In this document: in pieces, positions 20,819-39,862 of the stretch
Layout of the letters: every line of letters starts with the position of its first letter
Numbering within the stretch: position 1 is the first letter of the stretch
Assembly: GCF_004799685.1 (NCBI RefSeq)
Contig: NZ_CP031311.1
Coordinates: 1,550,001-1,614,000, forward strand
Source of the DNA: Halobellus limi
GTDB lineage: Archaea > Halobacteriota > Halobacteria > Halobacteriales > Haloferacaceae
DNA length: 64,000 nt
Reading direction: 5' to 3'
Program-made: the position numbers and the translations under genes
Notes under the pieces: model-generated
What the model was told of the DNA's origin: nothing
What the model saw: the letters and a program-made list of their open reading frames with translations, nothing else
The model's database searches: none

Positions 20819-23800
20819 ATGACAGACAAGACACGAATACGGCTGTTAGCGGTGCTTGCGGCGATGTTTATGATCACGTCACCGATGGCCGGCGTCGCCG
20901 GCGCGTCTGCCGTCAGTGACGCTGGGATGTCGCACGCGGTTGGATCGGACCAGGTGAAGCAGCCACAGCTCGATCCGCCAATACCGGATGACAGCGCAGA
21001 CGCCGCATCCCAGACAGAGACACAACAACGGGCCATCCAACCGGTAGAGGAACAGGCCGCTATACAGACCAGTGGAGAATTGGCCGAGATACAACCGTCA
21101 GGGTTCGATAAAGAGACGGTACTCTCCGGGTTGAACCAGCCCACAGCAACCACGTTCCTGCCGGACGGCCGAATGCTCCTCTTACAGAAGGGCGGCGAGG
21201 TGCTGATCGTCAACCCGGACACTGGGGCGACCTCTCCGTATATGTCGATCACAGACCTCGACACCGCCGGTGAGGAGGGGCTGATCGACATCACGCTCGA
21301 TCCGAACTTCCAGCAGAACAACTACATCTACATCTATTACACGCCCGAATCCAGTGGTAAGAACCGAATCGCTCGGTTCACTCACCAGGAGAACGGCGGT
21401 GGCCTCCAGAGCACCGCGGATCCGTCGAGCGAGTTCGTGGTCTGGGAGGACAACAGCGAACGAAAGAGTAACTATCACCACGGTGGTGGCCTCGACTTCG
21501 GCCCCGACGGGAAACTCTACCTGACCATCGGGGAGGAGGTCGATGGAAACCAAGCACAGGACCTGACCGAGGCCGGCGGCTCCGTAATCCGCGTCAATAA
21601 GGACGGAACGATCCCGCAGGACAACCCGTTCGTCGACGGTCCCGGTGGAAACGTCGACGCGATCTGGGCGTACGGCCTGCGCAACCCCTTCCGTGCGGAG
21701 TGGGACCTCCAAGCAGAGAATCCGCGCTACTACATCGCCGAGGTCGGTGGGAACGATCAGGCCACCGCTCAGGAGGACCTCCACATCGGCGAGAAGGGCG
21801 CCAACTACGGCTGGCCCGATTGCGAAGGTGCGTGTGATAACCCCGATTACACCGACGCGCTGTACACCTACTCACACGAGGGATCCGGCGCCTCGATCAC
21901 CGGAGGCGTCGTCTACCACGGTGACCAATTCCCCAGCCAGTACGAGGGGACCTACTTCTTCGCCGACTACGTCCGCGGCTGGATGAAGTACCTCACCTTC
22001 GACAGCTCCGGAGAGGTCCAGAGCGTCAACACGTTCGACGACAACGCCGGGGCGGTCGTCGAGATCGACCAGGGACCGGACGGGTCGCTGTACTACCTCG
22101 ACATCGCCTCCGGAACGCTCCAGAAGGTCTCCTACGACGCGACGACCGACGCTGAACCGACGCTCGACTCCATCGGAACTACGTTCGTCGACGAAGGCCA
22201 GACGAAACAGGTCACGGTCAGCGCGTCCGACGCGGACGGCGACCCGCTGACGCTGTCCGCCGAGAACCTCCCGGGATTCGCCTCGTTCACCGACAACGGC
22301 GACGGCACGGGCACGCTCACGCTCGCCCCGCAGTCGGGTGAGGCCGGCCAGTACCAGGCGACTGTCTCCGTCAGCGACGGCGACGACACTGACAGCGAGA
22401 CGTTCACGATCTCCGTCCTCGAACCGGGTATGGATCAGGTCGCCTACCGGGTCCACGCGGGGGCTGGAACGATCGCGGCGGTTGATAACGGACCCGACTG
22501 GGAGTCGGACACGACGTATATGCAGACCCTCGGTGACACGTCTGACTGGTCGGGCACGACCTACACCGTCGACGACTCGGTCCCGGCGAGCACGCCCGAC
22601 GCCGTCTTCGAGACGGAACGCTGGCCCTCGTCCGGGTCGACTATCGAGTACGATTTCCCCGTCACGCAGGGTGAGACCTACGAGGTCCGCCTGTACTTCA
22701 TCGAGCAGTACAGCGAGGCCCAGGACGTCGGCGATCGGGTTATGGACGTCTCACTGGAGGGTCAGACGGTCCTGAACGACTACGACATCGTCGCCGACGC
22801 CGGCTACAAGACGGGCACGATGCAGAACTTCACCGTCACAGCCAGCGACGGGACGCTCGACCTCTCGTTCGACCAGGACGGCGGGACCCACAACCCGCTG
22901 ATGTACGGCGTCGAGATCGTCAAGCAGAGTCCCGACAACGACCAGCCGACGGCGTCGTTCACCTACTCGCCGTCCGATCCCACGACGGGCGAGTCGGTGA
23001 GCTTCGACGCCGCGGGATCGAGCGACTCCGACGGCTCGATCCAGAGCTACGACTGGGATTTCGACGGTGACGGGACGACCGACGCGACGGGCGAGAGCGT
23101 GTCGCACACGTTCGCTTCGAGCGGTGATCAGACGGTCGAACTCACGGTGACCGACGACGGCGGCGCGACCGCGACGGCGACCCAGACGGTGAGCGTCTCC
23201 TCGACTCAGCAGGGACAGCAGGTGCTCTACCGCGTGAGCGCCGGTGGGCCGGAGATCGCGGTCCAGAACGGCCCCGACTGGGAGAGCGACAACGGAACCG
23301 CGCCAAGCCAATACCGGGTCGGCGGCGGTGACGGTGCCACGGACTGGAACTCGTTCACGCCCGATCCCCCGCTGCAGTACGACGTCGGCTCCGCGGTCCC
23401 GGCGAGCACGCCGGACGCCGTCTTCGAGTACGAACGATACGGCAACGACGGATCCGTCGATTGGGAGTTCCCGGTCACGCAGGGTGAGACCTACGAGGTC
23501 CGCCTGTACTTCATCGAGCAGTACAGCGAAGCCAACGGCACCGGCGAACGCGTGATGGACGTCTCGATGGAGGGCCAGACGGTCCTGAACGACTACGACG
23601 TCGTCGCCGAAGTCGGCTACAAGAACGCGACGATGAAGTCCTTCGAGGTGACCGCCGACGACGGAAACCTCGATATCTCCGTCGCCCAGGACGGCGGGGA
23701 CCACAACCCCAACGTCTTCGGCGTCGAAGTGATCCAACCGGGTACCGACGGCGCGAACCAACCGCCCGAGGCGACCATCGACGCGCCCGCCGACGGGTCG

Positions 23801-26800
23801 TTATTCCAGGCTGGCGACACCATTAACTTCTCCGGGTCGGCGACCGATCCGGAGGACGGCACGCTCTCGGGAACGGACCTCGAGTGGACCGTTCGGTTCC
23901 TCCACAACGAGCACTGGCACCCGTACCTGGACTCGGTGTCCGGTTCCAGCGGGAGTTTCACCGTTCCGACGAGTGGCCACGACTTCCACGACGATACGGC
24001 GTACCAGATCAACCTTACGGCAACTGACTCCCAGGGCGCCACCGACACCGAGACGGTAGTCGTCGAACCGGACAAGGTCGATCTCACCTTCGACACCCAG
24101 CCGAGCGGGTTAGAGATCGATATCGACAGCATACCGCACACCACCCCCCAGGTCCACGACTCGCTCATCGGCTTCGAGCACACCGTCTCCGCGCCGCAGA
24201 CGCAGTGTATGGACGGGACGGAGTACCAGTTCGAGGGCTGGTCCGATGGGGGCGCGGCCCAGCACACGATCACGGTCCCGAACTCGGACACGACGTACAC
24301 GGCGAATTACACCGCTGTCGGTCCGTGTGACGGTGGAGACAGTACGATCGCTCAGGCCGTGGCGAGCCAGAACGCGCCGGCCGACCAGATCGATCTCCAG
24401 GAGATCCAACTCGCGATCAACTGGTGGTCGACCAGCGCGGAAGTGCCGAACACCGGCGGGGAGACCATCTCCCTCCAAGAGATTCAACAGCTCATCAACG
24501 CATGGTCGACCAGCGCGACCGTCGGTGACGGCGGTGACGGGAACCAGGCCCCGGATGCCGCGTTCACCGTATCGCCGTCCGATCCCGCGACGGACGAGCA
24601 GGTGAGCTTCGACGCCTCGGGGTCGAGCGACTCCGACGGCGCGATCGCGAGCTACGAGTGGGACTTCGGCGACGGGACCACCGCCACCGGCGCGTCTCCC
24701 TCGCACGCCTACGACAGCGCGGGCACGTACACGGTGACGCTCACCGTGACCGACGACGACGGCGCGATCGATACGACGACCCAGCAGGTGACGGTCTCCG
24801 CGCCGCATACCCAGTATGTGGTCTACCGGCTGAACGCCGGTAACTCCTCGGTTCCTGCCGTCGACGACGGGCCGGACTGGGAGAACGACACCGAGTATCT
24901 CCAGGCGGCGGGTCAGCAATCGACGCCCGATACGTGGGGCGCGAACTACTCGGTTGGGAACGCCGTTCCCGATTCCACACCCGACGCCATCTTCGAGAGC
25001 GAGCGGTGGACGGACGCTGGACCGATCGACTACGACATCCCGGTGACTGCCGGCGAGACCTACGAGGTCCGCCTGTACTTTATCGAACAGTGGAGCCAGG
25101 CGCAGAACTCCGGTGATCGGGTGATGGACGTCTCAATGGAGGGCCAGACGGTGCTGAACGACTACGACACCGTCGCCGAGGTCGGCTACAAGAACGCCAC
25201 GATGGAGACTATCGAGGTGACTCCCCAGGACGGGGCCCTCGACCTCACGCTCACGCAGGACGGTGGCTCCGCGAAACCGTTCGTTTACGGTATCGAGATC
25301 CTGACCGAGGGCGGCGAGCAGGTGAACCAGCCGCCGACAGCCGGCTTCCACGTCCACGATCCGGTGGCCGGCCAGTCGGCCACGTACCACTCCGAGTCGA
25401 CCGACTCGGACGGCTCGATCCAGAGTTACGAGTGGGACTTCGACGGTGACGGAACCTTCGAGGAGTCGACGACGAACGCCCAGATCCAGCACACGTTCGA
25501 TTCGGGCGGCGACTACGACGTGACGCTGAAAGTCACCGACGACGACGGCGCGACCGACACGGCAACCCAGACCGTGACCGTCGCCAGTCAGTCGTCTGAG
25601 CAGATCATCTACCGGGTCAATACCGGCGGTCCGGAACTGCAGGCGACCGACGGCGGTCCGAACTGGGCGGTCGACAACGCGACCGACGGAAGCCAGAGCC
25701 CGTACCTGGTCGGCGACGGTGACGTGACGGTCCACGATACGCAGTTCAACGTCACAGACAGCGTGCCGCAGTCGACCCCCGACCAGATTTTCGTCACCGA
25801 GCGCTACGTCGACCAGCAGATGTCGTGGGACTTCCCGGCGACCGCCGGCGAGACCTACGAGGTCCGGCTGTACTACATCGAACAGTGGGACCCCAACGCG
25901 CAAGAAGGCGCCCGCATCTTCGACGTGGCCGCCGAGGGCCAGACGGTCCAGAACGACTACGACGTGATGGCCGACGTCGGCTTCGACAACGCGACGATGA
26001 AGAGCTTCACCGTCACGGCCGACGATGGAACCCTCGACATCGACTTCTCGCAGGACGGCGGGGGCGCGTACCCGCTGATCTACGGCATCGAGATCATCCA
26101 GCAGGGTGACGGCGGGAACGTCCCGCCGACGGCCTCGTTCTCCGCGTCGACCACGTCGGCTTCTTCCGGCCAGTCGATATCGTTCGACGCGAGCGGATCG
26201 AACGACCCTGACGGGGCGATCCAGAGCTACGCGTGGGACTTCGACGGCGACGGCACCACCGACACCACCGGTCCCACGGCCTCGCACGCCTTCTCGAACG
26301 TCGGCACCTACACGGTCGAACTAACGGTCACGGACGACGGTGGTGCGACCGCGATGGCCACCGAGCAGATATCCGTCACGGAGCCGTCGGACGGAACGTT
26401 CCAGACCGAGCAGATGACCAGCGGCCTCGACCAGCCCGTCGCGATGGAGGTCCTGCCGGACGATCGGATGCTCATCCTTGAGCGCGGCGGCGACGTCCTC
26501 ATCGCCGAGGAGCAGGGGAGCTCCCTCTCGACCTCGGAGTACCTGTCGTTGTCGAGCGTCAGTACGAACGGCGAGCAGGGCCTTCTGGGCGTGACCATCG
26601 ACCCCGACTTCCAATCGAACGGGTACGTCTACCTCTACTACACGAACGAGAACACGGACACGAACCAGATCTCGCGGGTCGTCCACCAAGAGAACGGCGG
26701 CGGCCTGCAGAGCACGGCCGATCCCACGACCGAGACGAAAATCTGGAACAGTTCGATCCAAGGCGATGCCACGTACCACCACGGAGGCGGGCTCGACTTC

Positions 26801-29800
26801 GGACCCGACGGGAAACTGTACCTTTCCACCGGGGAGCAGTTTACGGCCTCCCGAGCACAGGACCTGAGTTCGACCGGAGGCAAGATCATTCGGATCAACA
26901 AGGACGGCTCGATCCCGTCCGATAACCCGTACGTCGACGACGGCGATCCGAATACCCGCGGTGACATCTGGGCTTCCGGGCTGCGCAACCCCTTCCGTGC
27001 GGAGTGGGACCACCAGACCGACCGGTTTTTCGTCGCCGAAGTCGGTCTGGACACCGCCGAGGACATCCACCTCGGGAAGAAGGGGGCCAACTACGGCTGG
27101 CCCGACTGTGAAGGCGAGTGCAGCGATCCGGCCTACGACGATCCGATCTACACGTACGGCCACGACGTCGGTGGATCAATCACCGGCGGTGACTTCTATC
27201 GCGGATCTCAGTTCCCCAGCGAGTACGAGGGTGCGTACTTCTACGGTGACTACGTCGCCGGCTGGATCAAGTACCTGACTTTCGACTCGGACGGAAACGT
27301 CACCGGAAGCTACGACTTCAAGAGCGACGCGAACAACGTCGTCGAGATCGACCAGGGCCCCGACGGGTCGCTCTACTACATCGATATCACCGGTTCGATC
27401 CACCGCGTCTCCTTCCAGCCCGCCGAGGAGGGAAGTGCCAGCCTTTCGCTCAACGAGGGCAACAGCAACATCGACACGAGCACCTGGAAGAGCGGCGCAG
27501 TCGAGATCGAAAACACCGGCGACAAGCAGATCGAGTCGGTGACGTTCGACCTCTCGACCGCCGCTATGCCCGATATCGTCTTCGGGCCACTGACCGACAG
27601 TGGGACACCCGGCAACGCGGTCAAGGACGCCTCGGGCGCGGGTGGATTCCAGACGTCGTACAGCGAGCCGCACGACGGCAACCCCGACGACGGCTACGAT
27701 CAGCTGACGTTCACCTACGATGACTTCCAGCCTGGCGAAACGTTCACCGTCTCGCTGGACACCGACGCCCTGAGCGTCAAGGGCGCGACGCCGATCCAGC
27801 AGGGACTCGAGATTTCCGGTCTCGAAACGACGGGGACCACCGTCACTATCGAGTACGCCGATGGAACGACGCAGACGACGACGCCGTTCAGCGACGGTAG
27901 CGCGGCTGGCGCTGTCGCAACTGCGAAATCGGACGTGCCGGCGGCACCGAGTCTCGGTGTCGAGGAAGTGACGCTGGACGGGGGGGCGCTCGACGCTCGA
28001 CACAGCGCGGCGACCGTCGCCTCGGCCCAGCAGACCGTCGAGGTCAGTGGGGAGCCCAACTCGACCGTTCGAGTGCTTCGCTTCGAAGGTGAACTCAACC
28101 TCGAAGACGTGAGCGGCTACGACCTCGAATCCTACGAGGCGAATCGGATCCTGAACTTCGACGAACAGACGGTCACCCTCGACGAGAACGGTGAGGCGAC
28201 CGTCGACGTGACGCTCTCGAACAGCAGCGCGGCCGGCGGCCTCAACTACATCGTCGCGGTGGGCGAGGACGCGCAGGGCGACACCGGACTCACGTCGGAC
28301 CCGATCGTCCTTGATTACGACCCCGACGCCGCTCAGCCGTCGGGCGGCGAGGCGACAGTCGCCATCACGACGACCGAGGCGGCCTTCCCGGAGGGGATGG
28401 TCACGCTGCAGGACGCGACCACCTATTTCGAGGACTCGGTCCAGATCACCAACACCGGCGACCAGCAGATCGAGTCGCTCACCATCGACAAGAGCACGTC
28501 GCTGATCGAGAATATGGTCTACGATCCGACCGGGTGTGCCGGTGACGGCGGGTGCAACCCCGGCGCTACCGACATCCGGATCGTGAATGAGAACGGCGCT
28601 GTTCTGACCAGCCACGAGTTCCAGAAGCCGGTCAACGGCGTCGACGGAACCGACGGGTACAAGGCGTTGCATATGAAGTTCGACGACTTCGACCCCGGTG
28701 AGACGGTCACCTACGCGTCCGACGGCGACCCGAACACCATCAAGGGCGGCGGCGGCCAGCAGTCTGTTCTCGCCGGCCCCGAGTCCGGCATCGATCTCAC
28801 GGGCACGACCGTCACCGCGTCGTTCGCCGACGGCACGACTGCGTCCTCGGGCACCTTCAACGAGGGCAGTCTCGCCGGCTCGACCGGCGTCGCGCGAGCG
28901 AACGCCCCTGACGCACCCAGCATCGACGCGCAGAACCTGACCCTCCAGGCGACGACCCTCTCGGACAGACACACCGCCGCGACCGTCGCCGACGCCGACC
29001 AGACCATCGAGATCAGCGGCCCGCCCGGCGAGACGGTGCGGCTGATGCACGCGGAGGCGACGCTCCTGCTGGAGGACGTTCCGACCTACGACGGCACGCC
29101 GGGCTACGACATCGAACCCTACGAGGCGAACAATGTCGAGAACTACACGATCACGGACGTCCAAATCGACCAGAACGGTGAGGCCACCGTCGACGCAACG
29201 CTCACCAACCTGACTGGTGAGCTGACCTCGCCCGCGGACAAGAGCGGGTTCAACTACTTCGTCGCCACCGTTCAGGGCGACGACGGCCACGCGGGGACGG
29301 CCTCGAACGTGGTCATCCTGAAGCTAGAGGAAGGCTCGCAAACGCCCAGCATCCAGCCGGTCGACGACCAGTTCCTCACCGAGGGCGACTCGACGACCGT
29401 AACGGTCGAGGCGACCGATCCCAACGGTGACGCGCTGACGCTGTCGGCGTCGAACCTCCCGGACTTCGCGAGCTTCACCGACAACGGCGACGGCACGGGA
29501 ACGCTGACGTTATCGCCGCAGACCGATGACGCGGGGAACTACGACCTCACGCTGTCGGCCTCCGACGGCGAGCACACGACGACCCAGCAGGTGACCGTCG
29601 GCGTGAGCGAACCCGGTGCCGACCAGGTCGTCCACCGCCTGCACGCAGGGAGCGGCACGATCAGTGCGATCGACGGCGGCCCTGACTGGGGATCGGATTC
29701 CCAGTATATGACGACGGCGGGAGATACGTCAGACTGGACGGGTACGACCTACACGGTCGGACCCTCGGTCCCGGCGAGTACTCCCGACGCCGTGTTCGAG

Positions 29801-31708
29801 ACGGAGCGCTACCCCACCGGCGGGAGCACGATTGACTACGACTTGCCGGTTACCCAAGGTGAGACCTACGAGGTCCGTCTGTACTTCATCGAACAGTACA
29901 GCGATACGCAGAACCCCGGTGATCGGGTGTTCGACGTCACGATCGACGGCCAGACGGTGCTGAACGACTACGACGTCGTCGCCGACGTCGGCTACAAGAA
30001 CGCGACGATGGAGTCCTTCGAGGTGACCGCCGACGACGGGACTTTGGATCTCTCGTTCTCGCAGGCGAGTGGCGCCTCTCCGTTTATGTACGGAGTCGAA
30101 GTCGTGAAATCGGGGGCCAGTAACCAGGCCCCGAACGCCTCGTTAACTGCCTCGTCCACGTCCGTTGAGACCAGCCAAACCGTCGACTTCGACGCGGCCG
30201 GATCGAGCGACCCCGACGGGTCGATCGCGAGCTACGAGTGGGACTTCGACGACGGGACCACGGCCACGGGTCCGACCCCCTCGCACAGCTACGACAGCGC
30301 GGGTACCTACACCGTCGAAGTGACCGTCACCGACGACGGCGGTGCGACCGACACCGCCACCACGACGGTCACGGTCACCGAGTCGACGACGTCGTCGATC
30401 CTCTACCGTCTGAACGCCGGCGGTCCGGAGATCGCGGCGATCGACGGCGGCCCCGACTGGGAGAGCGACAACACCACCCAGCCGAGCCAGCACATCATCG
30501 ACGACGGCAGTGTGGGCACGACAAACTGGCTGACGTTCGAGAACGGGCCGCTGAACTACGATGTCGGGGCGGCAGTTCCCGCGAGCACGCCGGACGCCGT
30601 CTTCGAGTACGAACGGTACGCCACCGACGACGAACTGGCGTACTCGTTCCCGGTCACGCAGGGCGAGACCTACGAGGTCCGCCTGTACTACATCGAACAG
30701 TACGAATCGGCGAACGGATCGTCTGACCGCGTGATAGACGTGACGGTGGAGGGGCAGACGGTACTCAACGACTACGACACCTCCAACGAGGTCGGATTCA
30801 AGAACGGGACGATGGAGAGCGCAGAGGTCACTGCCGACGACGGCACGCTTGACCTCACGATCGCCGACGTCAGCGACGAAAACAGCGCGAATCTCTTCGC
30901 TATTGAAGTGCTGGAAGCGACCGGTGGGGCGGCGAATCAGGCACCGAACGCGTCGGTCACCGCGTCGGCGACGGATGTCGAGACCGGCGAATCGATCGAC
31001 TTCGACGCGTCGGCATCGAGCGATCCCGACGGCTCGATCGCGAGCTACGAGTGGGACTTTGACGGCGACGGGACGACCGACGCCACGGGCGCACAGGCGT
31101 CGCACGCCTTCCAGAGCGCCGGCACCTATCAGGTGAACCTCACCGTCACGGACGATGCCGGCGCGACCGCCTCGGCTCAGCAGACCATCTCGGTCAGCGA
31201 ACCGGCGTCGTCGAACGTCGTCTACCGGGTCAACACGGGTGGCTCGGAGGTTTCGGTCTCCGACGAACCGAACTGGGAGAACGACTCGAGCTACCTCCTC
31301 ACCAACGGGGGAGTGACAACCCACGACACCCAGTTCAATGTCACCGACAGCGTCCCGACGGGGACGTCTGAGCAGATCTTCGTCACCGAGCGGTGGCCGT
31401 CCTCCGGTTCCACCCTCGACTACGAGTTCTCGGTGACGCAGGGTGAGACCTACGAGGTCCGGCTGTACTTCATCGAGCAGTGGGCCCCCAATGACCAGGA
31501 AGGGACGCGGATCTTCGACGTCACCGCCGAGGGCCAGACGGTCCTGAACGACTATGACATTATGACCGACGTGGGCTTCGACAATGCGACGATGAAGTCC
31601 TTCGAGGTGACCGCCGACGACGGCACCCTCGACATCTCGCTCACGAAGGACGGCGGGAGTGCCAATCCGTTCGTGTACGGAATCGAGATCGTCGAGAAGG
31701 AGAGTTGA
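20819..31708 (+). CDS. Giant secreted protein: two glucose/sorbosone dehydrogenase, seven malectin-like, six PKD domains
   Basis: A 3629-residue exported protein with a Sec signal (1-30). Domain order by approximate residue: GSDH propeller 94-439, Ig-like 440-537, malectin 538-703, PKD 705-795, malectin 796-975, a GSDH-associated Ig plus beta repeat 976-1174, dockerin-like 1175-1240, PKD 1240-1329, malectin 1329-1499, PKD 1500-1591, malectin 1591-1763, PKD 1763-1856, second GSDH 1856-2201, two unrecognised modules 2201-2839, Ig 2840-2933, then malectin-PKD-malectin-PKD-malectin to the end. Propeller motifs YHHGGGLDFGPDGKLYL, GLRNPFRAEWD and GANYGWPDCEG occur in both copies. The family suggests PQQ-dependent sugar oxidation, with carbohydrate binding by the malectins. 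There is no C-terminal anchor, so retention may depend on partners. It is the first gene of a five-gene cluster. Confidence 0.88.
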   Translation: MTDKTRIRLLAVLAAMFMITSPMAGVAGASAVSDAGMSHAVGSDQVKQPQLDPPIPDDSADAASQTETQQRAIQPVEEQAAIQTSGELAEIQPSGFDKETVLSGLNQPTATTFLPDGRMLLLQKGGEVLIVNPDTGATSPYMSITDLDTAGEEGLIDITLDPNFQQNNYIYIYYTPESSGKNRIARFTHQENGGGLQSTADPSSEFVVWEDNSERKSNYHHGGGLDFGPDGKLYLTIGEEVDGNQAQDLTEAGGSVIRVNKDGTIPQDNPFVDGPGGNVDAIWAYGLRNPFRAEWDLQAENPRYYIAEVGGNDQATAQEDLHIGEKGANYGWPDCEGACDNPDYTDALYTYSHEGSGASITGGVVYHGDQFPSQYEGTYFFADYVRGWMKYLTFDSSGEVQSVNTFDDNAGAVVEIDQGPDGSLYYLDIASGTLQKVSYDATTDAEPTLDSIGTTFVDEGQTKQVTVSASDADGDPLTLSAENLPGFASFTDNGDGTGTLTLAPQSGEAGQYQATVSVSDGDDTDSETFTISVLEPGMDQVAYRVHAGAGTIAAVDNGPDWESDTTYMQTLGDTSDWSGTTYTVDDSVPASTPDAVFETERWPSSGSTIEYDFPVTQGETYEVRLYFIEQYSEAQDVGDRVMDVSLEGQTVLNDYDIVADAGYKTGTMQNFTVTASDGTLDLSFDQDGGTHNPLMYGVEIVKQSPDNDQPTASFTYSPSDPTTGESVSFDAAGSSDSDGSIQSYDWDFDGDGTTDATGESVSHTFASSGDQTVELTVTDDGGATATATQTVSVSSTQQGQQVLYRVSAGGPEIAVQNGPDWESDNGTAPSQYRVGGGDGATDWNSFTPDPPLQYDVGSAVPASTPDAVFEYERYGNDGSVDWEFPVTQGETYEVRLYFIEQYSEANGTGERVMDVSMEGQTVLNDYDVVAEVGYKNATMKSFEVTADDGNLDISVAQDGGDHNPNVFGVEVIQPGTDGANQPPEATIDAPADGSLFQAGDTINFSGSATDPEDGTLSGTDLEWTVRFLHNEHWHPYLDSVSGSSGSFTVPTSGHDFHDDTAYQINLTATDSQGATDTETVVVEPDKVDLTFDTQPSGLEIDIDSIPHTTPQVHDSLIGFEHTVSAPQTQCMDGTEYQFEGWSDGGAAQHTITVPNSDTTYTANYTAVGPCDGGDSTIAQAVASQNAPADQIDLQEIQLAINWWSTSAEVPNTGGETISLQEIQQLINAWSTSATVGDGGDGNQAPDAAFTVSPSDPATDEQVSFDASGSSDSDGAIASYEWDFGDGTTATGASPSHAYDSAGTYTVTLTVTDDDGAIDTTTQQVTVSAPHTQYVVYRLNAGNSSVPAVDDGPDWENDTEYLQAAGQQSTPDTWGANYSVGNAVPDSTPDAIFESERWTDAGPIDYDIPVTAGETYEVRLYFIEQWSQAQNSGDRVMDVSMEGQTVLNDYDTVAEVGYKNATMETIEVTPQDGALDLTLTQDGGSAKPFVYGIEILTEGGEQVNQPPTAGFHVHDPVAGQSATYHSESTDSDGSIQSYEWDFDGDGTFEESTTNAQIQHTFDSGGDYDVTLKVTDDDGATDTATQTVTVASQSSEQIIYRVNTGGPELQATDGGPNWAVDNATDGSQSPYLVGDGDVTVHDTQFNVTDSVPQSTPDQIFVTERYVDQQMSWDFPATAGETYEVRLYYIEQWDPNAQEGARIFDVAAEGQTVQNDYDVMADVGFDNATMKSFTVTADDGTLDIDFSQDGGGAYPLIYGIEIIQQGDGGNVPPTASFSASTTSASSGQSISFDASGSNDPDGAIQSYAWDFDGDGTTDTTGPTASHAFSNVGTYTVELTVTDDGGATAMATEQISVTEPSDGTFQTEQMTSGLDQPVAMEVLPDDRMLILERGGDVLIAEEQGSSLSTSEYLSLSSVSTNGEQGLLGVTIDPDFQSNGYVYLYYTNENTDTNQISRVVHQENGGGLQSTADPTTETKIWNSSIQGDATYHHGGGLDFGPDGKLYLSTGEQFTASRAQDLSSTGGKIIRINKDGSIPSDNPYVDDGDPNTRGDIWASGLRNPFRAEWDHQTDRFFVAEVGLDTAEDIHLGKKGANYGWPDCEGECSDPAYDDPIYTYGHDVGGSITGGDFYRGSQFPSEYEGAYFYGDYVAGWIKYLTFDSDGNVTGSYDFKSDANNVVEIDQGPDGSLYYIDITGSIHRVSFQPAEEGSASLSLNEGNSNIDTSTWKSGAVEIENTGDKQIESVTFDLSTAAMPDIVFGPLTDSGTPGNAVKDASGAGGFQTSYSEPHDGNPDDGYDQLTFTYDDFQPGETFTVSLDTDALSVKGATPIQQGLEISGLETTGTTVTIEYADGTTQTTTPFSDGSAAGAVATAKSDVPAAPSLGVEEVTLDGGALDARHSAATVASAQQTVEVSGEPNSTVRVLRFEGELNLEDVSGYDLESYEANRILNFDEQTVTLDENGEATVDVTLSNSSAAGGLNYIVAVGEDAQGDTGLTSDPIVLDYDPDAAQPSGGEATVAITTTEAAFPEGMVTLQDATTYFEDSVQITNTGDQQIESLTIDKSTSLIENMVYDPTGCAGDGGCNPGATDIRIVNENGAVLTSHEFQKPVNGVDGTDGYKALHMKFDDFDPGETVTYASDGDPNTIKGGGGQQSVLAGPESGIDLTGTTVTASFADGTTASSGTFNEGSLAGSTGVARANAPDAPSIDAQNLTLQATTLSDRHTAATVADADQTIEISGPPGETVRLMHAEATLLLEDVPTYDGTPGYDIEPYEANNVENYTITDVQIDQNGEATVDATLTNLTGELTSPADKSGFNYFVATVQGDDGHAGTASNVVILKLEEGSQTPSIQPVDDQFLTEGDSTTVTVEATDPNGDALTLSASNLPDFASFTDNGDGTGTLTLSPQTDDAGNYDLTLSASDGEHTTTQQVTVGVSEPGADQVVHRLHAGSGTISAIDGGPDWGSDSQYMTTAGDTSDWTGTTYTVGPSVPASTPDAVFETERYPTGGSTIDYDLPVTQGETYEVRLYFIEQYSDTQNPGDRVFDVTIDGQTVLNDYDVVADVGYKNATMESFEVTADDGTLDLSFSQASGASPFMYGVEVVKSGASNQAPNASLTASSTSVETSQTVDFDAAGSSDPDGSIASYEWDFDDGTTATGPTPSHSYDSAGTYTVEVTVTDDGGATDTATTTVTVTESTTSSILYRLNAGGPEIAAIDGGPDWESDNTTQPSQHIIDDGSVGTTNWLTFENGPLNYDVGAAVPASTPDAVFEYERYATDDELAYSFPVTQGETYEVRLYYIEQYESANGSSDRVIDVTVEGQTVLNDYDTSNEVGFKNGTMESAEVTADDGTLDLTIADVSDENSANLFAIEVLEATGGAANQAPNASVTASATDVETGESIDFDASASSDPDGSIASYEWDFDGDGTTDATGAQASHAFQSAGTYQVNLTVTDDAGATASAQQTISVSEPASSNVVYRVNTGGSEVSVSDEPNWENDSSYLLTNGGVTTHDTQFNVTDSVPTGTSEQIFVTERWPSSGSTLDYEFSVTQGETYEVRLYFIEQWAPNDQEGTRIFDVTAEGQTVLNDYDIMTDVGFDNATMKSFEVTADDGTLDISLTKDGGSANPFVYGIEIVEKES

Positions 31709-31712
31709 TAGT

Positions 31713-34199
31713 ATGAAGAAACGAACCACCCCGAACGGTTCTTCGGAGGAATCGGCGCGGAACGAGCATCGCATTAGTCGGAGAGACGTGCTTCGCGGAA
31801 CGTCGGCACTCGGCGTCGCCGGGATGGCGTCCAGTCTGACCGTTGGACGGGCCCAGGCGGCACCTGACGACACCACCTTCGTGAGCGTTCCGGATATGTA
31901 CAACTGGGACATCGCGAATCCTCAGTCCGGCTGGGAGGACGCGATCGACTGGTTCTTCAACCAGCTCACGTCCGTGGAAGGCGCCGAGTTCGCCCTCTCC
32001 GCGGGAGACATTATGGACGCCCGCTGGTGGTCCGACAAACAGCAGGTCGAGACGCTGGCAGACGAATACTGGGTCGGATACAAACAGCGATTCGAGAACA
32101 GCAACCTCCCGGTGTACGTCGCTCCGGGTGACCACGAGCGGGGCGACAACGACTGGCCCGACTGGAAGCTGGACCTGGTCCCCACGTTCGAACAGAAGTT
32201 CGTGGAGATCTTCGATCATCCCACGAACGGCCCGACGGGAAAGGAGGAACTGGCCTACTACTTCGTCGAGGACAACGCGCTGTTCGTCACGGTAGACACG
32301 TGGGAACTGAAGAACGGAGAGGTGCATCTGAGCGTTACCGGCGACCAGCTCACCTGGTTCGAGAACACCCTCTCGAACCACCAGGACAAGGACTTCATCG
32401 TCGTTCAGGGCCACGTACCAGTCATTCCCGGCGTCAACACCCGGAATTCGAGCGGCCTCTACCTGGAGGGGGGCCAGTCGTCCGCGTTCTGGCAGACGAT
32501 GAAGCAGTACGGTGTCGACGCCTACCTGTGTGGCGAACACCACGCCATCACCACCGACAAGGTCGACGGCATCTGGCAGATCGTTCACGGGTCCCTCTGG
32601 GGGACGCACACGAACCTGAACTACCTCGTGGGAACCGTGGGGTCGGACACGCTCGAACTCGAACTCAAGGAGTTCGACGTGAGTTACGGCGGTGGCTACA
32701 TCGACCACATCAATCGAGGCGATACGAACGCGCCCCGAGAGGAGGTCACGATCTCCGCCAGTGCCAAGCAGAACGGTCCCACCACTGTCGAGTCGATCAC
32801 GATCGACAGCTCGGCGCCCGACAACCCAGACAGCGGGGGTTGTCCGGTCACCAAAACCGTGCCCGACCTGACCGATAATGGGAACGACGGGACGATCGAA
32901 GGAAACGTGTCGCAGGTCTCTGCCTACGACGGCGACGGCTTGCAGTTCAACGACGGCGGGTACGTTACTGTCGCGGAGAGTCCCAGCATCGACGTAACGG
33001 ATCCGCCGTTCACGGTGGAGTGCTGGGTGAAACCCACCGACCCGAAAGCCGGCGGGAACGGGTACGAACCCTACGTCACGAAGGTCGGTGAAACAGGTCA
33101 GTACTCGCTCCACCGGACCTCCCTGGCGAACGACGCGAACGGCCAACTCGAATTCGCGGTCAGCTCCGAGGGAGAGTTCTACACGCCCCGGTCGCCCGTC
33201 CCCGACGACTGGCAGGGAACCTGGCATCACCTCGCCGGTGTGTACGACGGCAGCGCTGTCAAACTCTACGTCGACGGCGCGGAGAAAGACAGCGTCCCGT
33301 TCTCGGGAACGCTCGCGGACACGACGAGCCCGGTTGAAATCGGCCGTAACTTCGGAAATCCGACGCGGCAACTCACGGACGGAACGGTCGTCGACCGGGT
33401 TCGAATCCACCGGGCAGGACTCACTGCGAGCGAACTCGACCAGTCGGATCCTGCCGGGAGCGAAAACTCCGTCCTCTGGTTCGACTTCGAGTCGATCGAT
33501 ACCGACGCGACCGGTGCACCGACGAGCGACACGTATCTGAGTGATCTCGAGGCGATCGATTTCACTGTCGGCTACACCTTCGAGGATTTCGGCAGGGACG
33601 AGGCCGTCTCCGGCAACGCGCTACAGGTCGACGGACAGACGTACGACAAAGGTATCGGGACGCACGCGACCTCCGAGATACGATACTGCCTGGATCGGAA
33701 CGTTGCCCGGTTCCAGGCCCAGGTCGGTATGGACGAGAAAGGAGGCGAGTTCACCGGCGGAGCTGCAGGCGGAAACGGCGTCGTCTTCCGGGTGCTCGGT
33801 GACGGGCAGATCATCACCGAGGAGGGCCCGGTGACCCATCCTGAAGGACCAGTCTCCATCGATATCGACGTTTCCGACGTCAGCGTGCTCACGCTCGTCG
33901 CCGACGGCGGCGGCGATACCTCGTACGACCACGCCGACTGGTTGCAAGCGCGCGTCACGACCCAGACAGTCCCCGAGGCGATCGCGGGTCCGGACGGGAC
34001 GGTGGGCTTCCAGGAGGTCCAGGAGGCCATCAATATGTGGGCGAGAGAGGATCCCGTGCCGGGAACCGGTGGCGAGACCATCGGCTTCCAGCAGATACAG
34101 GAGATCATCAACCTCTGGTCGACCGGCGGCACCGTCGGCGACGACAGTGAAGCCACGTCGCAATCGTTGGCGTCGATGATCGGCCCGGGGGGTGAGTGA
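31713..34199 (+). CDS. Tat-exported metallophosphoesterase-like protein with LamG, NPCBM and dockerin-like modules
   Basis: An 828-residue protein. It has a Tat signal (SRRDVLRGTS, Arg pair 23-24, followed by a hydrophobic stretch to about 50) and a calcineurin-like phosphoesterase domain (about 52-335) with GDIMDAR, APGDHERG, VQGHVPVIPG and CGEHHAI. The usual GNHE and GHxH motifs are altered to GDHE and GEHH, and the first DxH motif is not clear, so metal binding may be changed. A LamG-type jelly roll (383-577, WHHLAGVYDG), an NPCBM carbohydrate-binding module (607-751, DKGIGTHATSEI) and a C-terminal dockerin-like module (753-813) follow. It starts 4 bases after the giant gene. It is probably a surface enzyme or lectin of the same complex. 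Confidence 0.85.
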   Translation: MKKRTTPNGSSEESARNEHRISRRDVLRGTSALGVAGMASSLTVGRAQAAPDDTTFVSVPDMYNWDIANPQSGWEDAIDWFFNQLTSVEGAEFALSAGDIMDARWWSDKQQVETLADEYWVGYKQRFENSNLPVYVAPGDHERGDNDWPDWKLDLVPTFEQKFVEIFDHPTNGPTGKEELAYYFVEDNALFVTVDTWELKNGEVHLSVTGDQLTWFENTLSNHQDKDFIVVQGHVPVIPGVNTRNSSGLYLEGGQSSAFWQTMKQYGVDAYLCGEHHAITTDKVDGIWQIVHGSLWGTHTNLNYLVGTVGSDTLELELKEFDVSYGGGYIDHINRGDTNAPREEVTISASAKQNGPTTVESITIDSSAPDNPDSGGCPVTKTVPDLTDNGNDGTIEGNVSQVSAYDGDGLQFNDGGYVTVAESPSIDVTDPPFTVECWVKPTDPKAGGNGYEPYVTKVGETGQYSLHRTSLANDANGQLEFAVSSEGEFYTPRSPVPDDWQGTWHHLAGVYDGSAVKLYVDGAEKDSVPFSGTLADTTSPVEIGRNFGNPTRQLTDGTVVDRVRIHRAGLTASELDQSDPAGSENSVLWFDFESIDTDATGAPTSDTYLSDLEAIDFTVGYTFEDFGRDEAVSGNALQVDGQTYDKGIGTHATSEIRYCLDRNVARFQAQVGMDEKGGEFTGGAAGGNGVVFRVLGDGQIITEEGPVTHPEGPVSIDIDVSDVSVLTLVADGGGDTSYDHADWLQARVTTQTVPEAIAGPDGTVGFQEVQEAINMWAREDPVPGTGGETIGFQQIQEIINLWSTGGTVGDDSEATSQSLASMIGPGGE

Positions 34200-34442: not shown

Positions 34443-36860
34443 ATGAATCACATCGCTCCACGCGCCGGTCGGATCACCGCTGTGCTCGTAGCGCTGCTAC
34501 TCGTCACATCGGTCTTCGGTCCGATCGGGACGGTGGCAGCAGAACCAGGCGTATCGATCTCTCAGACGGCCACGTCGGGAACGACGGTGGCCCCCGGGGA
34601 AACGATCACAATAGAAGCAACTATCGACTACACAGACGTCAACGGACCCGGAATCAACGCCACAGTTCCCGACGGTTGGTCCGTCACGAGCCACACCGAC
34701 GACGGCGGCACGTACGGACCCCCCCAGCCCGCGTGGGTCTGGCTGGATGGCGGCGAGGCCGGTGCGACCGGGAATCACACCGTCTCCTACACGGTTCAGG
34801 TCCCCACGGACGCCTCAGAAGGTGAGTACACGTTCTCTGCCGTCGGATCGGCCGGCAACCCCGCCGGCGGACCGCTTCTGGAGAGCACCGACGAACTGAC
34901 CGTCACGGTCCAGGACAACCAACAGCCGAGTGCCTCGTTCAGCGCGTCGCCGACCGATCCCGAAGTCGGCCAGTCAGTGACCTTCGACGCCTCGGCGTCG
35001 AGCGATTCCGACGGGTCGATCGACACCTACGCGTGGGACTTCGACGGCGACGGAACGACTGACGCCACGGCTGCCACCGCAACGACGTCGCACACCTACG
35101 ACACCAACGGAACCTACACCGCGACGCTCACCGTCACCGACGACGACGGTAAGACCGCGACCGACACGGTCGACGTGACCGTCCAGTCGCCCGCACCGAC
35201 TCTGAACCCGAGCGTTTCGGTCACCCAGACGGCCACCTCGCCGACCACGGTCCAGCCCGGTGACATAGTCTCCGTCGAGACGACCATCGACTACACCGAC
35301 GTCAACGCCCCCGGCATCGACGTCACACTCCCCGACGGCTGGTCCGTCACGAGCCACACCGACGACGGCGGCACATACGGTCCCCCACAGCCCGCCTGGG
35401 TCTGGGGCCAACAGGGCTCTGAGACCGGTATCACCGGGTTCAACACTGTCACGTACACGGTACAGGTGCCCGTCGGCACCTCGTCCGGCGACTACACGAT
35501 CGCAGCCGAGGGTTCCGGCGTCGATCCCAGTGACGATTCGTTCGTGACCGATACGACCGACCTGACCGTCTCCGTTCAGGAACCCACTAACCAGGATCCG
35601 ACGGCGGTGTTCTCGGCGACGCCGTCCGATCCCGAAGTTGGACAGACGGTGACGCTGGACGCCTCGGGGTCGAGCGACTCCGACGGCGCGATCGCGAGCT
35701 ACGAGTGGAACTTCGGCGACGGGACCACCGCCACCGGCGCGTCTCCCTCGCACGCCTACGACAGCGCGGGCACGTACACGGTGACGCTCACCGTGACCGA
35801 CGACGACGGCGCGATCGATACGACGACCCAGCAGGTGACCGTCAGCGAACCGCCGAACCAGAGTCCGTCGGCTGCGTTCACCGCGTCGCCGTCCGACCCC
35901 ACTGTCGATCAGAAAGTGACTCTCGACGCGTCCGGTTCGAACGACGCCGACGGCTCGATCCAGAGCTACGAATGGACGATCGAGACGCCCGGCACGACGG
36001 GCGATACCACGCTCCTCGACACCGACTTCGAGTCGGGCTCGCTTTCGGCGGCTGGCTGGAGTCACGGATCGACTGACGGGACGGCGTCGGCCGGCGTGAG
36101 CGATGCCACGTCGAACTCGGGCAGTCTGTCGGCGTTCCACCACGGTGGCGCCGGCGCGCTGGTCTCCCCGGCGGTCGACGCCGCGGGGACGCAGTCGATC
36201 GAGATCAACTACTGGGTCCAGAAGGGCCACGACGACTTCAGCGAAAATCCCGACGCGAACGACGAAGAGGATCTCGTCGTCGAATACCTGTCTTCCAGCG
36301 GCGACTGGGTCGAGATCGGTCGAATCGAATCGACGGTTTCGCCCGGTGCGATCGTCGAGGAGAGCGTCGTGATCTCGGACGCCGCTGCATTCCACGACAG
36401 CTTGCAGGTTCGCTTCCGCCAGCAAGGCGCTGACGCAACCAACGGTGACTACTGGCACGTTGACGATGTCGCGATCTCCGCGACGACCGATGAAACTCAG
36501 GACATAACGATGACAAACGAAACGACGACATTCACTCCGTTGACGGCCGGTGACTACGAGGTCACGCTCACTGTCACCGACGACGACGGCGCAACGGACT
36601 CGACGACGCAGACGGTCACTGTAGACGAACAGGCACCTGACGATCAATCCATCTCCCAGGCCGTCGCGAGCCTGAACGACGCCGGCGACGACTCCGTCAT
36701 CGGAACTCAGGAGATCCAGCAGGCGATCGATCTCTGGGTTGACGACGATCCAGTCCCGAGAACCGACGGTGAGACCATCTCGACCGCGCAGATGCAACAG
36801 CTCATCGATATGTGGGTTGAGGACGAGACGGTCGACGCCGCCAACGGAGGTGGGAACTGA
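34443..36860 (+). CDS. Secreted PKD protein with inserted MAM/lectin-like domain and dockerin-like C-terminus
   Basis: An 805-residue exported protein with a Sec signal (1-31). Two copies of an Ig-like module of NEW3/DUF11 character (33-145 and 250-375, both with VPDGWSVTSH or LPDGWSVTSH and YGPPQPAWVW) alternate with PKD domains (155-245, 378-470). A third PKD domain begins at about 471 and is interrupted at SYEWTIETPG by about 160 residues resembling a MAM or concanavalin-like module (DTDFESGSLSAAGW to YWHVDDVAIS). Its last strands (TAGDYEVTLTVTDDDG) resume near 690. A dockerin-like module closes it (733-803). It has no catalytic motif and is likely a structural or binding component. Confidence 0.82.
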   Translation: MNHIAPRAGRITAVLVALLLVTSVFGPIGTVAAEPGVSISQTATSGTTVAPGETITIEATIDYTDVNGPGINATVPDGWSVTSHTDDGGTYGPPQPAWVWLDGGEAGATGNHTVSYTVQVPTDASEGEYTFSAVGSAGNPAGGPLLESTDELTVTVQDNQQPSASFSASPTDPEVGQSVTFDASASSDSDGSIDTYAWDFDGDGTTDATAATATTSHTYDTNGTYTATLTVTDDDGKTATDTVDVTVQSPAPTLNPSVSVTQTATSPTTVQPGDIVSVETTIDYTDVNAPGIDVTLPDGWSVTSHTDDGGTYGPPQPAWVWGQQGSETGITGFNTVTYTVQVPVGTSSGDYTIAAEGSGVDPSDDSFVTDTTDLTVSVQEPTNQDPTAVFSATPSDPEVGQTVTLDASGSSDSDGAIASYEWNFGDGTTATGASPSHAYDSAGTYTVTLTVTDDDGAIDTTTQQVTVSEPPNQSPSAAFTASPSDPTVDQKVTLDASGSNDADGSIQSYEWTIETPGTTGDTTLLDTDFESGSLSAAGWSHGSTDGTASAGVSDATSNSGSLSAFHHGGAGALVSPAVDAAGTQSIEINYWVQKGHDDFSENPDANDEEDLVVEYLSSSGDWVEIGRIESTVSPGAIVEESVVISDAAAFHDSLQVRFRQQGADATNGDYWHVDDVAISATTDETQDITMTNETTTFTPLTAGDYEVTLTVTDDDGATDSTTQTVTVDEQAPDDQSISQAVASLNDAGDDSVIGTQEIQQAIDLWVDDDPVPRTDGETISTAQMQQLIDMWVEDETVDAANGGGN

Positions 36861-38914
36861 TGTGGCCCGATGATTCGCCACGCAGCAGGCGCTTTGCGGC
36901 AATCGCGTTCGCGCTGCTGGTCGCCCTATCGGTCCTCTCACCGGCAGCCGCAATCCCTCAACCAGCCGACACCGTCGGTGTGGAACAGAGCGCGGCCCAG
37001 TCGGTGGCTTCACCAGGGCAGACGGTCACGATCGAAACGACGATCAACGCCAGCAGTTACAACGCGCCGGCGCTAGCGGTCGATCTCCCCGACGGGTGGT
37101 CGATCCAGAGCCAGTCCGCGCAGGGGCCAGCAACGTTCAAGCCCTCTACCAACGAGTGGGTTTGGTTGTCCGGTGACGAGTATACCGTCACCTACACCGT
37201 GTCGGTCCCCACCGACGCGGCCGACGGTGACTACACCATCACCGCCGACGGATCGGCGATCGATCCGTCCGACGATAGCTTCGTAAACAACGGTGCGTCA
37301 ACGACGATCACCGTCCAGACGCAACCGACGAACCAGCCGCCGAACGCAGACGCAGGTGACGACCAGACGGTCGACGAAGGAGCGACCGTGACGCTCGACG
37401 GCTCCGGGTCTGACGATTCGGACGGCGACAGTCTGAGTTACTCCTGGAGCGTGACCGACGACGCGGGCACGGGCGTGACGCTCTCCGACGCCTCCTCGGA
37501 GGGACCCTCGTTCACTGCACCCGACGTCGACGGTGATGAGACTCTGACGTTCCAAGTCCAGGTCTCCGACGGCCAGACGAGTGACACAGACACCGTCGAG
37601 GTGACGGTCCAGGACACCGACACCGACGATCCGGAACCGGCGGCCGACGTGACGGTCTCGCAGTCGGCTCAAGCGGCGTCGGTCGCGCCCGGTGAGACGG
37701 TGACGTTCGACGCGACGATATCCACGACGGCCGCCAACGCGCCAGCCCTCGACGTGACGCTACCAGCCGGTTGGTCGATCCAGAGCCAGTCCGCGCAGGG
37801 GCCAGCAACGTTCAAGCCCTCCACTCAGGAGTGGGTGTGGCTCGCCGGCGGTGACTATACCGTCACCTACACGGTGGCCGTGCCCTCCGATGCGACCGAC
37901 GGTCAATACACGGTCACCGCCGATGGATCGGCTGTGAACCAGGCCACCGACAAGTTCGTCACCGACTCGACGACGACGTCGGTGACCGTCCAGACGCAGC
38001 CAACGAACCAGCCGCCATCGGCGGCGTTCACTGCGTCGCCGACCGATCCCGAAGTCGGCCAGTCGGTGAGCTTCGACGCGTCGGCCTCGAACGACCCCGA
38101 CGGCTCGATCCAGAGCTACGAGTGGGACTTCGACGGCGACGGAACGGTCGACGCGACCGGTGAGTCAGGGACGTACGCCTATGTCTCCGCCGGTGACTAC
38201 GACGTCACTCTCACGGTCACCGACGACGACGGCGCGACCGCCAGCACCACGCAGACGGTGACGGTCTCCGAGATGCCCGACTCCGATCTGTCGACCGCGG
38301 TGTCGCTGTCGCCCGACGAGGATCTGATCGCCGTGAACGGCGCTAGCACGTTCGACGTGGTGGTCGAGGACGCCGACGGCGGCGTCGGCGTGTACTCGCT
38401 GTCGCTCTCGGTCGACGACGACTCTACCGCCACGATTACGGACGTCTCGGTCGACGACGACGCGACGACTGACATCCAAATCGCCCCCGACAACGCCTCG
38501 GCGACCGTCGAGGTCGCACTGCTCGACACCGAACAGAACGGTTCCGTCACCGTCGCGAACGTGACGGTCGCCGGTCAGTCCGCGGGGACGACGGACCTCG
38601 AACTCGACGTGGCCGCGCTCGGAACCGAGTCCGGACAGGCCTACAACGTCACCGCGACGAACGGCGCCTCAATCACCGTCTCCGAACTCGTGGTCGGTAA
38701 CTCGAAGGCACCCGCACAGGACCCCGACGGCGACGGAGCCCACGAGGACGTGGACGGCGACGGGGATGTCGATGTGCTCGACGTCCAGGTGCTGTTCGTC
38801 GAGCGCAACAGCGCCGTCGTGCAGAACTCCCCGGACGCCTTCGACTTCAACGGCGACGGCGAGTTCGACATCCTCGACGTGCAGGCCCTGTTCTACCAGG
38901 AGATCGTCCTCTGA
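36860..38914 (+). CDS. Secreted PKD protein with cohesin-like domain and canonical dockerin
   Basis: A 684-residue exported protein with a signal near 10-35. Two Ig-like modules (38-155 and 262-385) share LPDGWSIQSQSAQGPATFKP-type sequence. They are separated by a REJ/PKD-like domain (158-255) and followed by a PKD domain (390-475). Then comes a cohesin-like beta module (477-615, VDVVVEDADGGVGVYSLSLS-type strands) and a dockerin with two EF-hand-like loops (DVDGDGDVDVLDVQVLF and DFNGDGEFDILDVQALF). Cohesin next to dockerin in one archaeal protein recalls Archaeoglobus fulgidus. The start overlaps the previous stop (TGATG), so the two genes are coupled. Confidence 0.82.
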   Translation: MWPDDSPRSRRFAAIAFALLVALSVLSPAAAIPQPADTVGVEQSAAQSVASPGQTVTIETTINASSYNAPALAVDLPDGWSIQSQSAQGPATFKPSTNEWVWLSGDEYTVTYTVSVPTDAADGDYTITADGSAIDPSDDSFVNNGASTTITVQTQPTNQPPNADAGDDQTVDEGATVTLDGSGSDDSDGDSLSYSWSVTDDAGTGVTLSDASSEGPSFTAPDVDGDETLTFQVQVSDGQTSDTDTVEVTVQDTDTDDPEPAADVTVSQSAQAASVAPGETVTFDATISTTAANAPALDVTLPAGWSIQSQSAQGPATFKPSTQEWVWLAGGDYTVTYTVAVPSDATDGQYTVTADGSAVNQATDKFVTDSTTTSVTVQTQPTNQPPSAAFTASPTDPEVGQSVSFDASASNDPDGSIQSYEWDFDGDGTVDATGESGTYAYVSAGDYDVTLTVTDDDGATASTTQTVTVSEMPDSDLSTAVSLSPDEDLIAVNGASTFDVVVEDADGGVGVYSLSLSVDDDSTATITDVSVDDDATTDIQIAPDNASATVEVALLDTEQNGSVTVANVTVAGQSAGTTDLELDVAALGTESGQAYNVTATNGASITVSELVVGNSKAPAQDPDGDGAHEDVDGDGDVDVLDVQVLFVERNSAVVQNSPDAFDFNGDGEFDILDVQALFYQEIVL

Positions 38915-38920
38915 TCGACG

Positions 38921-39862
38921 ATGGCTAGAACGACACACCGACGTTGCGTGCGACTGGGGGCGCTTGCCCTCGCGTTAGCCGTGGTTCTCGGCGCGGTGAG
39001 CGGCGTCGCGGCCGCCGCCGCCGCCACGAGCGTCGGGGTGTCCGTCGAGGCCACCGACGTCGCCGCCGGCGAAACCACGGCGGTCGACATCGTCGTCGAG
39101 GACGCCGACGGCGGCGTCGGCGCGGTGGAAGCCACGCTCACGCTTTCGGATCCGGCGGTCGCGTCCGTCGCGGACGTGAGGTTCCACGGGAACCCGGGGC
39201 TCACCGACGTGAGCGAGCGCGACGACGGCGTCGAACTGAGCGCCGCGCTCGCGGACACCGCAGACACCGGCCGCGTCACCGTCGCGACGGTCGTCCTCAG
39301 CGCTGACGGGGCGGGAGAGACGGCCGTCGACGTGGACGTCGAGTCCCTGGGAGACGAAGACGGAACGGCCTACACGGTCGACTCGGTCGACCGCCCGACG
39401 ATCACCGTCGCGGCCGACGGCTCCGGTTCTGACGGCTCCGGCTCGTCCGGCGCCGGCGGTTCTCAGGCTGACGCAACGGGTTCCGGCGACTCCCTGGGTG
39501 ACGCGACCGACTCCGGCGACGCCGGTGGCTCGGGCGCGACGCCCGCAGCGTCCGGTGACGAGGCCTCGAACGACGGTAGCGCCGCATCCGACGGTCAGAA
39601 CGGCGACTCCGCCGGTACCGCCGACACCGCGAACGAGGGGGCCGCTGGTGAGGGCGACGAGGCGACGGACGCCCCCACGACCGCACGGACCGACGATCGG
39701 ACCGCGGACGAGCGCGGACGGGAAGGCGTGACCGACGCCGACGGGAGCACCGATCGGATCGCCCTGTCCGGTCCCGGCGGGGCGTCGCTCGCGGGCCCCG
39801 TCGGTGCGGTCGGGGTCCTCGTGCTCGCGACGATCGCTCTCTATCGGTTCCGACGGTCCTGA
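38921..39862 (+). CDS. Membrane-anchored cohesin-like surface protein
   Basis: A 313-residue protein. It has a signal or hydrophobic N-terminus (about 8-30) and a cohesin-like domain (33-165, with DIVVEDADGGVGAVEATLTL close to the module in the upstream protein). A long Gly/Ser/Asp-rich low-complexity linker (166-285) and a C-terminal hydrophobic helix (287-308) ending YRFRRS follow. The linker plus tail is the usual way to project a haloarchaeal protein from the surface, and a GPGG motif lies just before the helix rather than the classic PGF. It starts 7 bases after the dockerin protein and is the obvious candidate anchor for it. Cohesin assignment is by pattern, not by search. Confidence 0.78.
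   Translation: MARTTHRRCVRLGALALALAVVLGAVSGVAAAAAATSVGVSVEATDVAAGETTAVDIVVEDADGGVGAVEATLTLSDPAVASVADVRFHGNPGLTDVSERDDGVELSAALADTADTGRVTVATVVLSADGAGETAVDVDVESLGDEDGTAYTVDSVDRPTITVAADGSGSDGSGSSGAGGSQADATGSGDSLGDATDSGDAGGSGATPAASGDEASNDGSAASDGQNGDSAGTADTANEGAAGEGDEATDAPTTARTDDRTADERGREGVTDADGSTDRIALSGPGGASLAGPVGAVGVLVLATIALYRFRRS

Follow-up and report, generated by a model that had tools for sequence, protein, structure and literature searches.

A conserved cohesin-dockerin gene set in Halobacteria and the putative three-tier surface complex of Halobellus limi

Five neighboring genes of Halobellus limi rather likely encode a three-tier, non-covalent surface complex, in which a membrane-anchored cohesin would hold an adaptor and the adaptor would hold several cargo proteins. 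The cohesin-dockerin surface complex is well supported by the fold of a cohesin module, the gene linkage, the co-occurrence of the modules across genomes, and the split between anchored and unanchored proteins. We regard the assembly as real, conserved, and a new variation on cohesin-dockerin assembly, with putative binding and putative chemistry. The window that was analyzed is a stretch of 64,000 nt (NZ_CP031311.1 in assembly GCF_004799685.1, forward-strand positions 1,550,001-1,614,000), and all coordinates are given as window positions. Genes A-E lie side by side on the + strand at 20819-39862. Their features, with the gene directly upstream, are as follows.

20081..20590, +, putative HTH regulator of the DUF7344 type (PF24035, E 7.6e-25), directly upstream of gene A
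20819..31708, +, gene A, exported giant of 3629 aa with two GSDH propellers, seven malectin domains, PKDs, and an internal dockerin-like module
21107..22138, +, GSDH (glucose/sorbosone dehydrogenase) propeller 1 of A (Pfam GSDH; PDB 2ism E 5.7e-36, 3a9g E 3.6e-33, sGDH 1c9u E 2.8e-24)
24338..24535, +, non-canonical dockerin-like module of A, residues 1174-1239 (AlphaFold2 pLDDT 82; dockerins are the best, weak structural matches)
26402..27418, +, GSDH propeller 2 of A (best GSDH stretch, residues 1870-2188)
31713..34199, +, gene B, with a Tat-type start, a phosphoesterase-like region, LamG, NPCBM, and a C-terminal dockerin-like module
33960..34148, +, non-canonical dockerin-like module of B
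34443..36860, +, gene C, exported PKD protein with a C-terminal dockerin-like module
36642..36845, +, non-canonical dockerin-like module of C
36860..38914, +, gene D, scaffold or adaptor with PKDs, a cohesin, and a canonical dockerin, without a TM tail
38288..38704, +, cohesin module of D (AlphaFold2 pLDDT 93; VIA Z 14.5 to 1g1k and 14.0 to 2xdh; Foldseek 2xdh E 1.7e-9)
38744..38890, +, canonical type I dockerin of D with two intact calcium loops (PF00404 above cut-off)
38921..39862, +, gene E, membrane-anchored cohesin protein with a long linker
39017..39418, +, cohesin-like module of E (36% identical to the module of D)
39779..39850, +, C-terminal TM-like tail of E, residues 287-310 (peak mean hydropathy 2.07)

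The original prediction of five adjacent, co-oriented genes for exported proteins agrees with the gene order and with the N termini of the products, since all five genes are on the + strand, a hydrophobic N-terminal segment is present in A, C, D, and E, and a Tat motif is present in B. The start of B follows the stop of A after 4 bases, 243 bases separate B from C, C and D overlap by 1 base, and 6 bases separate D from E. Homologues of the DUF7344 protein are also encoded next to the giant gene in several relatives (L110, L111, L099, L093, L089, and L096).

In the proposed assembly, E in the membrane would display one cohesin outside the cell. D would act as the adaptor: its canonical calcium-loop dockerin would plug into the cohesin of E, and its own cohesin would take up the cargo proteins A, B, and C by their non-canonical dockerin-like modules. 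The cargo would bring malectin/CBM57, LamG, and NPCBM/CBM51 sugar-binding domains to the surface, together with two propellers of the sugar-dehydrogenase type and a phosphoesterase-like domain. Such a complex would bind, and possibly oxidize, glycans. We infer the pairing scheme from the cohesin tree, the gene order, and the precedent of the cellulosome.

Cohesin modules, a canonical dockerin, and a probable second dockerin type

The C-terminal 215 residues of D were modeled with AlphaFold2 using 22 relatives, and the cohesin module is predicted with a pLDDT of 93. In a Foldseek search with the model, the cohesin of Archaeoglobus fulgidus (2xdh) ranks first (E 1.7e-9). VIA aligns the model with 1g1k at a Z score of 14.5 (rmsd 2.1 over 127 residues) and with 2xdh at 14.0, and all but three among the 50 entries listed by VIA are cohesins. 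By predicted structure, the β module of D has the cohesin jelly-roll fold; structure prediction, proposed earlier as a check on this cohesin-like domain, returns a near-exclusive match to solved cohesins. The module of E, 36% identical to the modeled module of D, appears to be cohesin-like on this identity. Among A-E, only E has a C-terminal TM-like segment, and with its long linker the protein matches its earlier description as a cohesin-like domain, similar to that of D, on a membrane tail.

From sequence alone, these modules are difficult to recognize. Pfam Cohesin (PF00963) has no match in the source genome and matches one of the 23 cohesin-family relatives (E 1.9e-4), and protein E is without any Pfam match. 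The cohesin profile has only three matches among the PDB sequences, all of them sub-significant chains of cellulosomal scaffoldins (best E 0.031), and phmmer searches of the PDB with D and E gave nothing useful. The source genome contains five cohesin-like domains; two belong to D and E, and the other three are encoded at a second locus, at a distance of about 110 kb. At this locus, gene F encodes GSDH, PKD, a cohesin, and a canonical dockerin, and gene G encodes two cohesins.

The dockerin of D scores above the cut-off of Dockerin_1 (PF00404, E 2.8e-7 and 4e-6 in two scans), and its position beside a cohesin-fold module bears out the predicted presence of the two domains in one protein. Across the family of canonical dockerins beside cohesins, the calcium ligand positions 1, 3, 5, and 12 are kept in both loops, and the dockerins beside cohesins in our sample are of the DPDGDG type.

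The modules of A, B, and C are 46-49% identical to the A copy, in line with the expectation of one dockerin-like module shared by three genes, and no copies beyond these were found in the 3.75-Mb genome. The module is a tandem repeat of 26 residues, the halves of which are 53% identical on average (9% in shuffles). Loop 2 has P1, T3, and G5 where calcium ligands are expected, and loop 1 retains D5 and E12 only. The AlphaFold2 model consists of three helices (pLDDT 82). With this model, Foldseek ranks a type II X-dockerin chain first, at a non-significant E of 0.57, and EF-hand proteins are also among its weak matches; the first four among the five entries listed by VIA are dockerins, with weak Z scores of 3.4, 3.1, 3.1, and 2.7. 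At the sequence level, hhalign against canonical dockerins gives a non-significant probability of 0.2%, Dockerin_1 is absent from the Pfam matches of the 32 module-family members, and PDB sequence searches with the module give chance-level matches only. A Pfam match of the module to DUF3717 (E 8e-6) was set aside as its identity because the match spans 17 residues only.

The best independent hint to the nature of the module comes from a positional swap. In two loci (L090 and L106), a canonical dockerin is located at the site of the non-canonical module in orthologues. The giant is split in these loci; the first half ends with the canonical dockerin, and in the second half the non-canonical module comes after a cohesin. 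This swap leads us to read the A/B/C module as a dockerin, which, with the predicted structure, it probably is. The lack of a profile match to dockerins and the EF-hand proteins among the weak structural matches would also fit a separate EF-hand-like surface module, serving for example another envelope component, with D and E as the only interacting proteins. Related modules in most genomes of genus g121 and in G228, where Pfam cohesins are missing, point in the same direction. We consider such a separate module unlikely, since the tight gene linkage of the module to cohesins, the dockerins at the head of its structural matches, and the swap with a canonical dockerin all argue against it.

Reading the module as a dockerin leads to a broader proposal, which we regard as tentative and not quite an even bet. 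The module would represent a new, calcium-free dockerin class adapted to molar salt, and with its cohesin it would form a second pair that is orthogonal to the canonical cohesin-dockerin pair. One operon would then give a two-step surface assembly with exchangeable cargo, and the related modules of Methanosarcinaceae would make the class an older archaeal invention. If the pairs bind, a dockerin that needs no calcium and is stable in salt would serve well as an orthogonal connector.

Recurrence of the three tiers in Halobacteria

We searched a sample of 242 Halobacteria genomes for the modules. Strong modules of the A/B/C type are found in 17 genomes, cohesin-like domains in 108, and Dockerin_1 in 112; cohesin-like domains and Dockerin_1 occur together in 85 genomes (Fisher p 2e-20, shared ancestry ignored). 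In 14 of the 17 genomes with a strong module (14 of the 15 measurable ones), the nearest cohesin is 201-6210 bp away. The corresponding chance bound is 4e-17 for 14/16 genomes, with G228 left out and the genomes treated as independent, though they are related. The exceptions are G210, in which the locus is split by a contig end, G121, with a distance of 94 kb to the nearest cohesin, and G228, in which no cohesin was found. A six-frame search of the scaffold locus of G121 for the missing cohesin or dockerin found neither.

The recurring unit is a set of three genes encoding a giant with the module, a scaffold with 1-3 cohesins and a canonical dockerin, and a cohesin anchor. The window has this set, as do most of the loci L080-L099 and L102-L113, in genera including Halobellus, Halorussus, Halorubrum, Haloarcula, and Halogranum. 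Tier sets were hand-picked on the basis of the domain tables, and cohesin proteins that lack a dockerin and adjoin a scaffold were counted as anchors. With these sets, TM-like tails are present in 14 of 18 anchors, in none of 16 giants, and in none of 17 scaffolds. Cargo, adaptor, and anchored proteins are separate, conserved tiers.

In a tree of 62 cohesins, the labels scaffold, anchor, and cohesin-plus-module need 6 changes against a shuffled mean of 22, though near-copies inflate this clustering. Scaffold and anchor cohesins fall into largely separate clades, suggesting that they have distinct partners and form two binding classes. The tandem of cohesin and dockerin with a short, near-constant spacer recurs in 22 units, as would also be expected if the canonical dockerin of one D bound the cohesin of another D to give a chain that E caps at the membrane. 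Such a chain is quite improbable, given the distinct partners suggested by the separate clades and the usual arrangement of a scaffold gene adjoining an anchor gene. We prefer D as the adaptor between E and the cargo.

Anchors of other forms and further occurrences of the modules were also observed. Cohesin anchors without a TM tail (L011:18801-19796; L084, L090, L104, and L106) end in helical-looking repeats, which are possibly another way of surface attachment. The repeat of the L011 anchor is TRDEIAQAKYG.DFDELS.ET and is also found in the genus relatives G217 and G452; the L084 anchor has an additional collagen-like stretch. In the haloarchaeal genome G208 (G208:C1:73000-112400; L136 and L137), PF00963 matches a 2087-aa protein 14 times, and this protein ends in a hydrophobic, membrane-like tail. 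Another protein of the locus has three cohesins, and several subtilases encoded there carry dockerins, some of them together with cohesins; all cohesin counts are Pfam matches. This locus looks like a cellulosome-style protease complex. G155 (L139 and L140) has about ten cohesin and eight dockerin matches, some of them divergent, and genes for dockerin proteins and cohesin anchors adjoin there; G189 is similar by counts.

A divergent module ends CARDB proteins of about 330 aa in several haloarchaeal families (L029, L036, L034, and similar loci), including genomes without cohesin matches, and a trypsin-like protein of G228 (L094) has a C-terminal module. Outside the haloarchaea but in the same phylum (L122-L124, G351, G355, and G398), a related dockerin-like module is found at the protein end, with carriers including a PQQ-type propeller and a papain-like protease with a lectin-like domain. 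In genomes of the Methanosarcinaceae type, related modules end exported proteins, with weak matches (E about 1e-9 to 1e-3). Pfam cohesins are missing from the majority of the Methanosarcina-like genomes that have related modules. Among the non-haloarchaeal relatives, the genomes of genus g106 have 9-10 Pfam cohesins, and most of those of genus g121 have none.

Cargo domains and possible sugar oxidation

Pfam assigns two GSDH propellers (E 1e-121), seven malectin domains (E 4e-139), and PKDs to A, LamG (E 5e-22) and NPCBM (E 3e-35) to B, and PKDs to C and D. Of the cargo parts originally named, the GSDH propellers, malectin, LamG, and NPCBM are recovered, and the phosphoesterase-like domain stays below threshold, the N-terminal region of B being weakly phosphoesterase-like (TIGR03767, E 0.0099). 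In another genome (L091), a separate protein consists of a Pfam metallophosphoesterase, CBM96, and a dockerin-like module of the A/B/C type. No glycoside hydrolase catalytic domain is present among the domain matches of A-E.

Both propellers of A keep the HHGGG and RNP motifs, the His and Arg residues of which we take to be catalytic, and the motifs of propeller 1 align with those of the Pyrobaculum sugar dehydrogenase (3a9g). PqqE was the pqq gene searched for, and no gene of the source genome reaches its cut-off, so that PQQ would need import or another route; it may be scavenged from outside. Most relatives have the same assembly with a divergent propeller, in which the GSDH match is weak and spans 32-34 residues. 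The cargo of the window type, a GSDH giant followed by a phosphoesterase-like/LamG/NPCBM protein, recurs in G217 and Haloarcula amylovorans. In the rest of the scanned giants, malectins accompany an ASH/Ig domain and a divergent propeller region, and the idea of a glycoside hydrolase in the giants of relatives found no support. The connector parts are thus conserved, and the cargo varies.

The same complex could have another job in adhesion or glycan capture, such as biofilm formation or binding of S-layer glycan or detritus, with propellers that are structural or ligand-binding and do not oxidize. The domain composition, dominated by malectin, PKD, LamG, and NPCBM, favors this possibility, as do the lack of a PqqE-level gene and the relatives that keep malectins and the dockerin-like module with a short, weak GSDH match only. 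However, both window propellers keep the HHGGG and RNP motifs, those of propeller 1 in alignment with the Pyrobaculum enzyme, and a further GSDH protein with a cohesin and a dockerin is encoded by gene F of the second locus. We take the non-oxidizing role as a serious but somewhat doubtful alternative. Oxidation of sugars or polysaccharides by the complex is possible, as judged from the sequences, and glycan capture at the cell surface is our guess at its function. The original prediction of a surface complex for polysaccharide oxidation holds for the complex, through fold, linkage, co-occurrence, and the anchored/unanchored split, and is weaker for oxidation, given the absence of a PqqE-level gene and the divergent propellers of most relatives.

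Comparison with known systems

Archaeoglobus fulgidus has archaeal cohesin and dockerin modules in non-cellulolytic proteins, and its cohesin is the first Foldseek match of D. Halobellus differs in that one cohesin belongs to a membrane-anchored protein of its own, an adaptor is present, and several cargo proteins share a further dockerin-like type, which is non-canonical. The bacterial cellulosome consists of dockerin-bearing enzymes, a primary scaffoldin, and an anchoring scaffoldin in a type I/type II arrangement. This arrangement is mirrored by the cargo dockerin, the adaptor with a cohesin and a different dockerin, and the anchored cohesin. On the Halobellus side, the adaptor encoded in the window has a single cohesin, no glycoside hydrolase was found, the cargo module lacks calcium ligands, and the membrane tail is haloarchaeal.

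According to the relevant section of a study on ANME archaea, some of their surface proteins have up to five cohesins and a dockerin, and transporter binding proteins are common cargo (PMC9012536). That section describes no three-gene operon with a non-canonical dockerin. Archaeal cohesin-dockerin pairs as such are already known, from Archaeoglobus and from ANME (PMC9012536). In the literature on haloarchaeal cohesins and dockerins, covered mostly through open papers, we found no description of this operon, and an earlier mention of haloarchaeal cohesins is possible.

Exported polysaccharide enzymes of haloarchaea carry type I dockerins, which have been read as substrate-binding, with cohesins unmentioned (PMC10963439, PMC13260240). 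This view contrasts with the joint occurrence of cohesins and Dockerin_1 in 85/242 genomes. Should the pairs bind, non-covalent assembly may apply to a large share of the haloarchaeal exoproteome.

The propellers of A are of the GSDH type, as in PQQ-dependent sugar dehydrogenases (AA12), including sGDH and the aldose sugar dehydrogenases of Pyrobaculum and E. coli, as reflected in the matches to 3a9g, 2g8s, and 1c9u. Unlike in these enzymes, two copies of the propeller form part of a malectin/PKD protein of 3629 aa, which also has a dockerin-like module.
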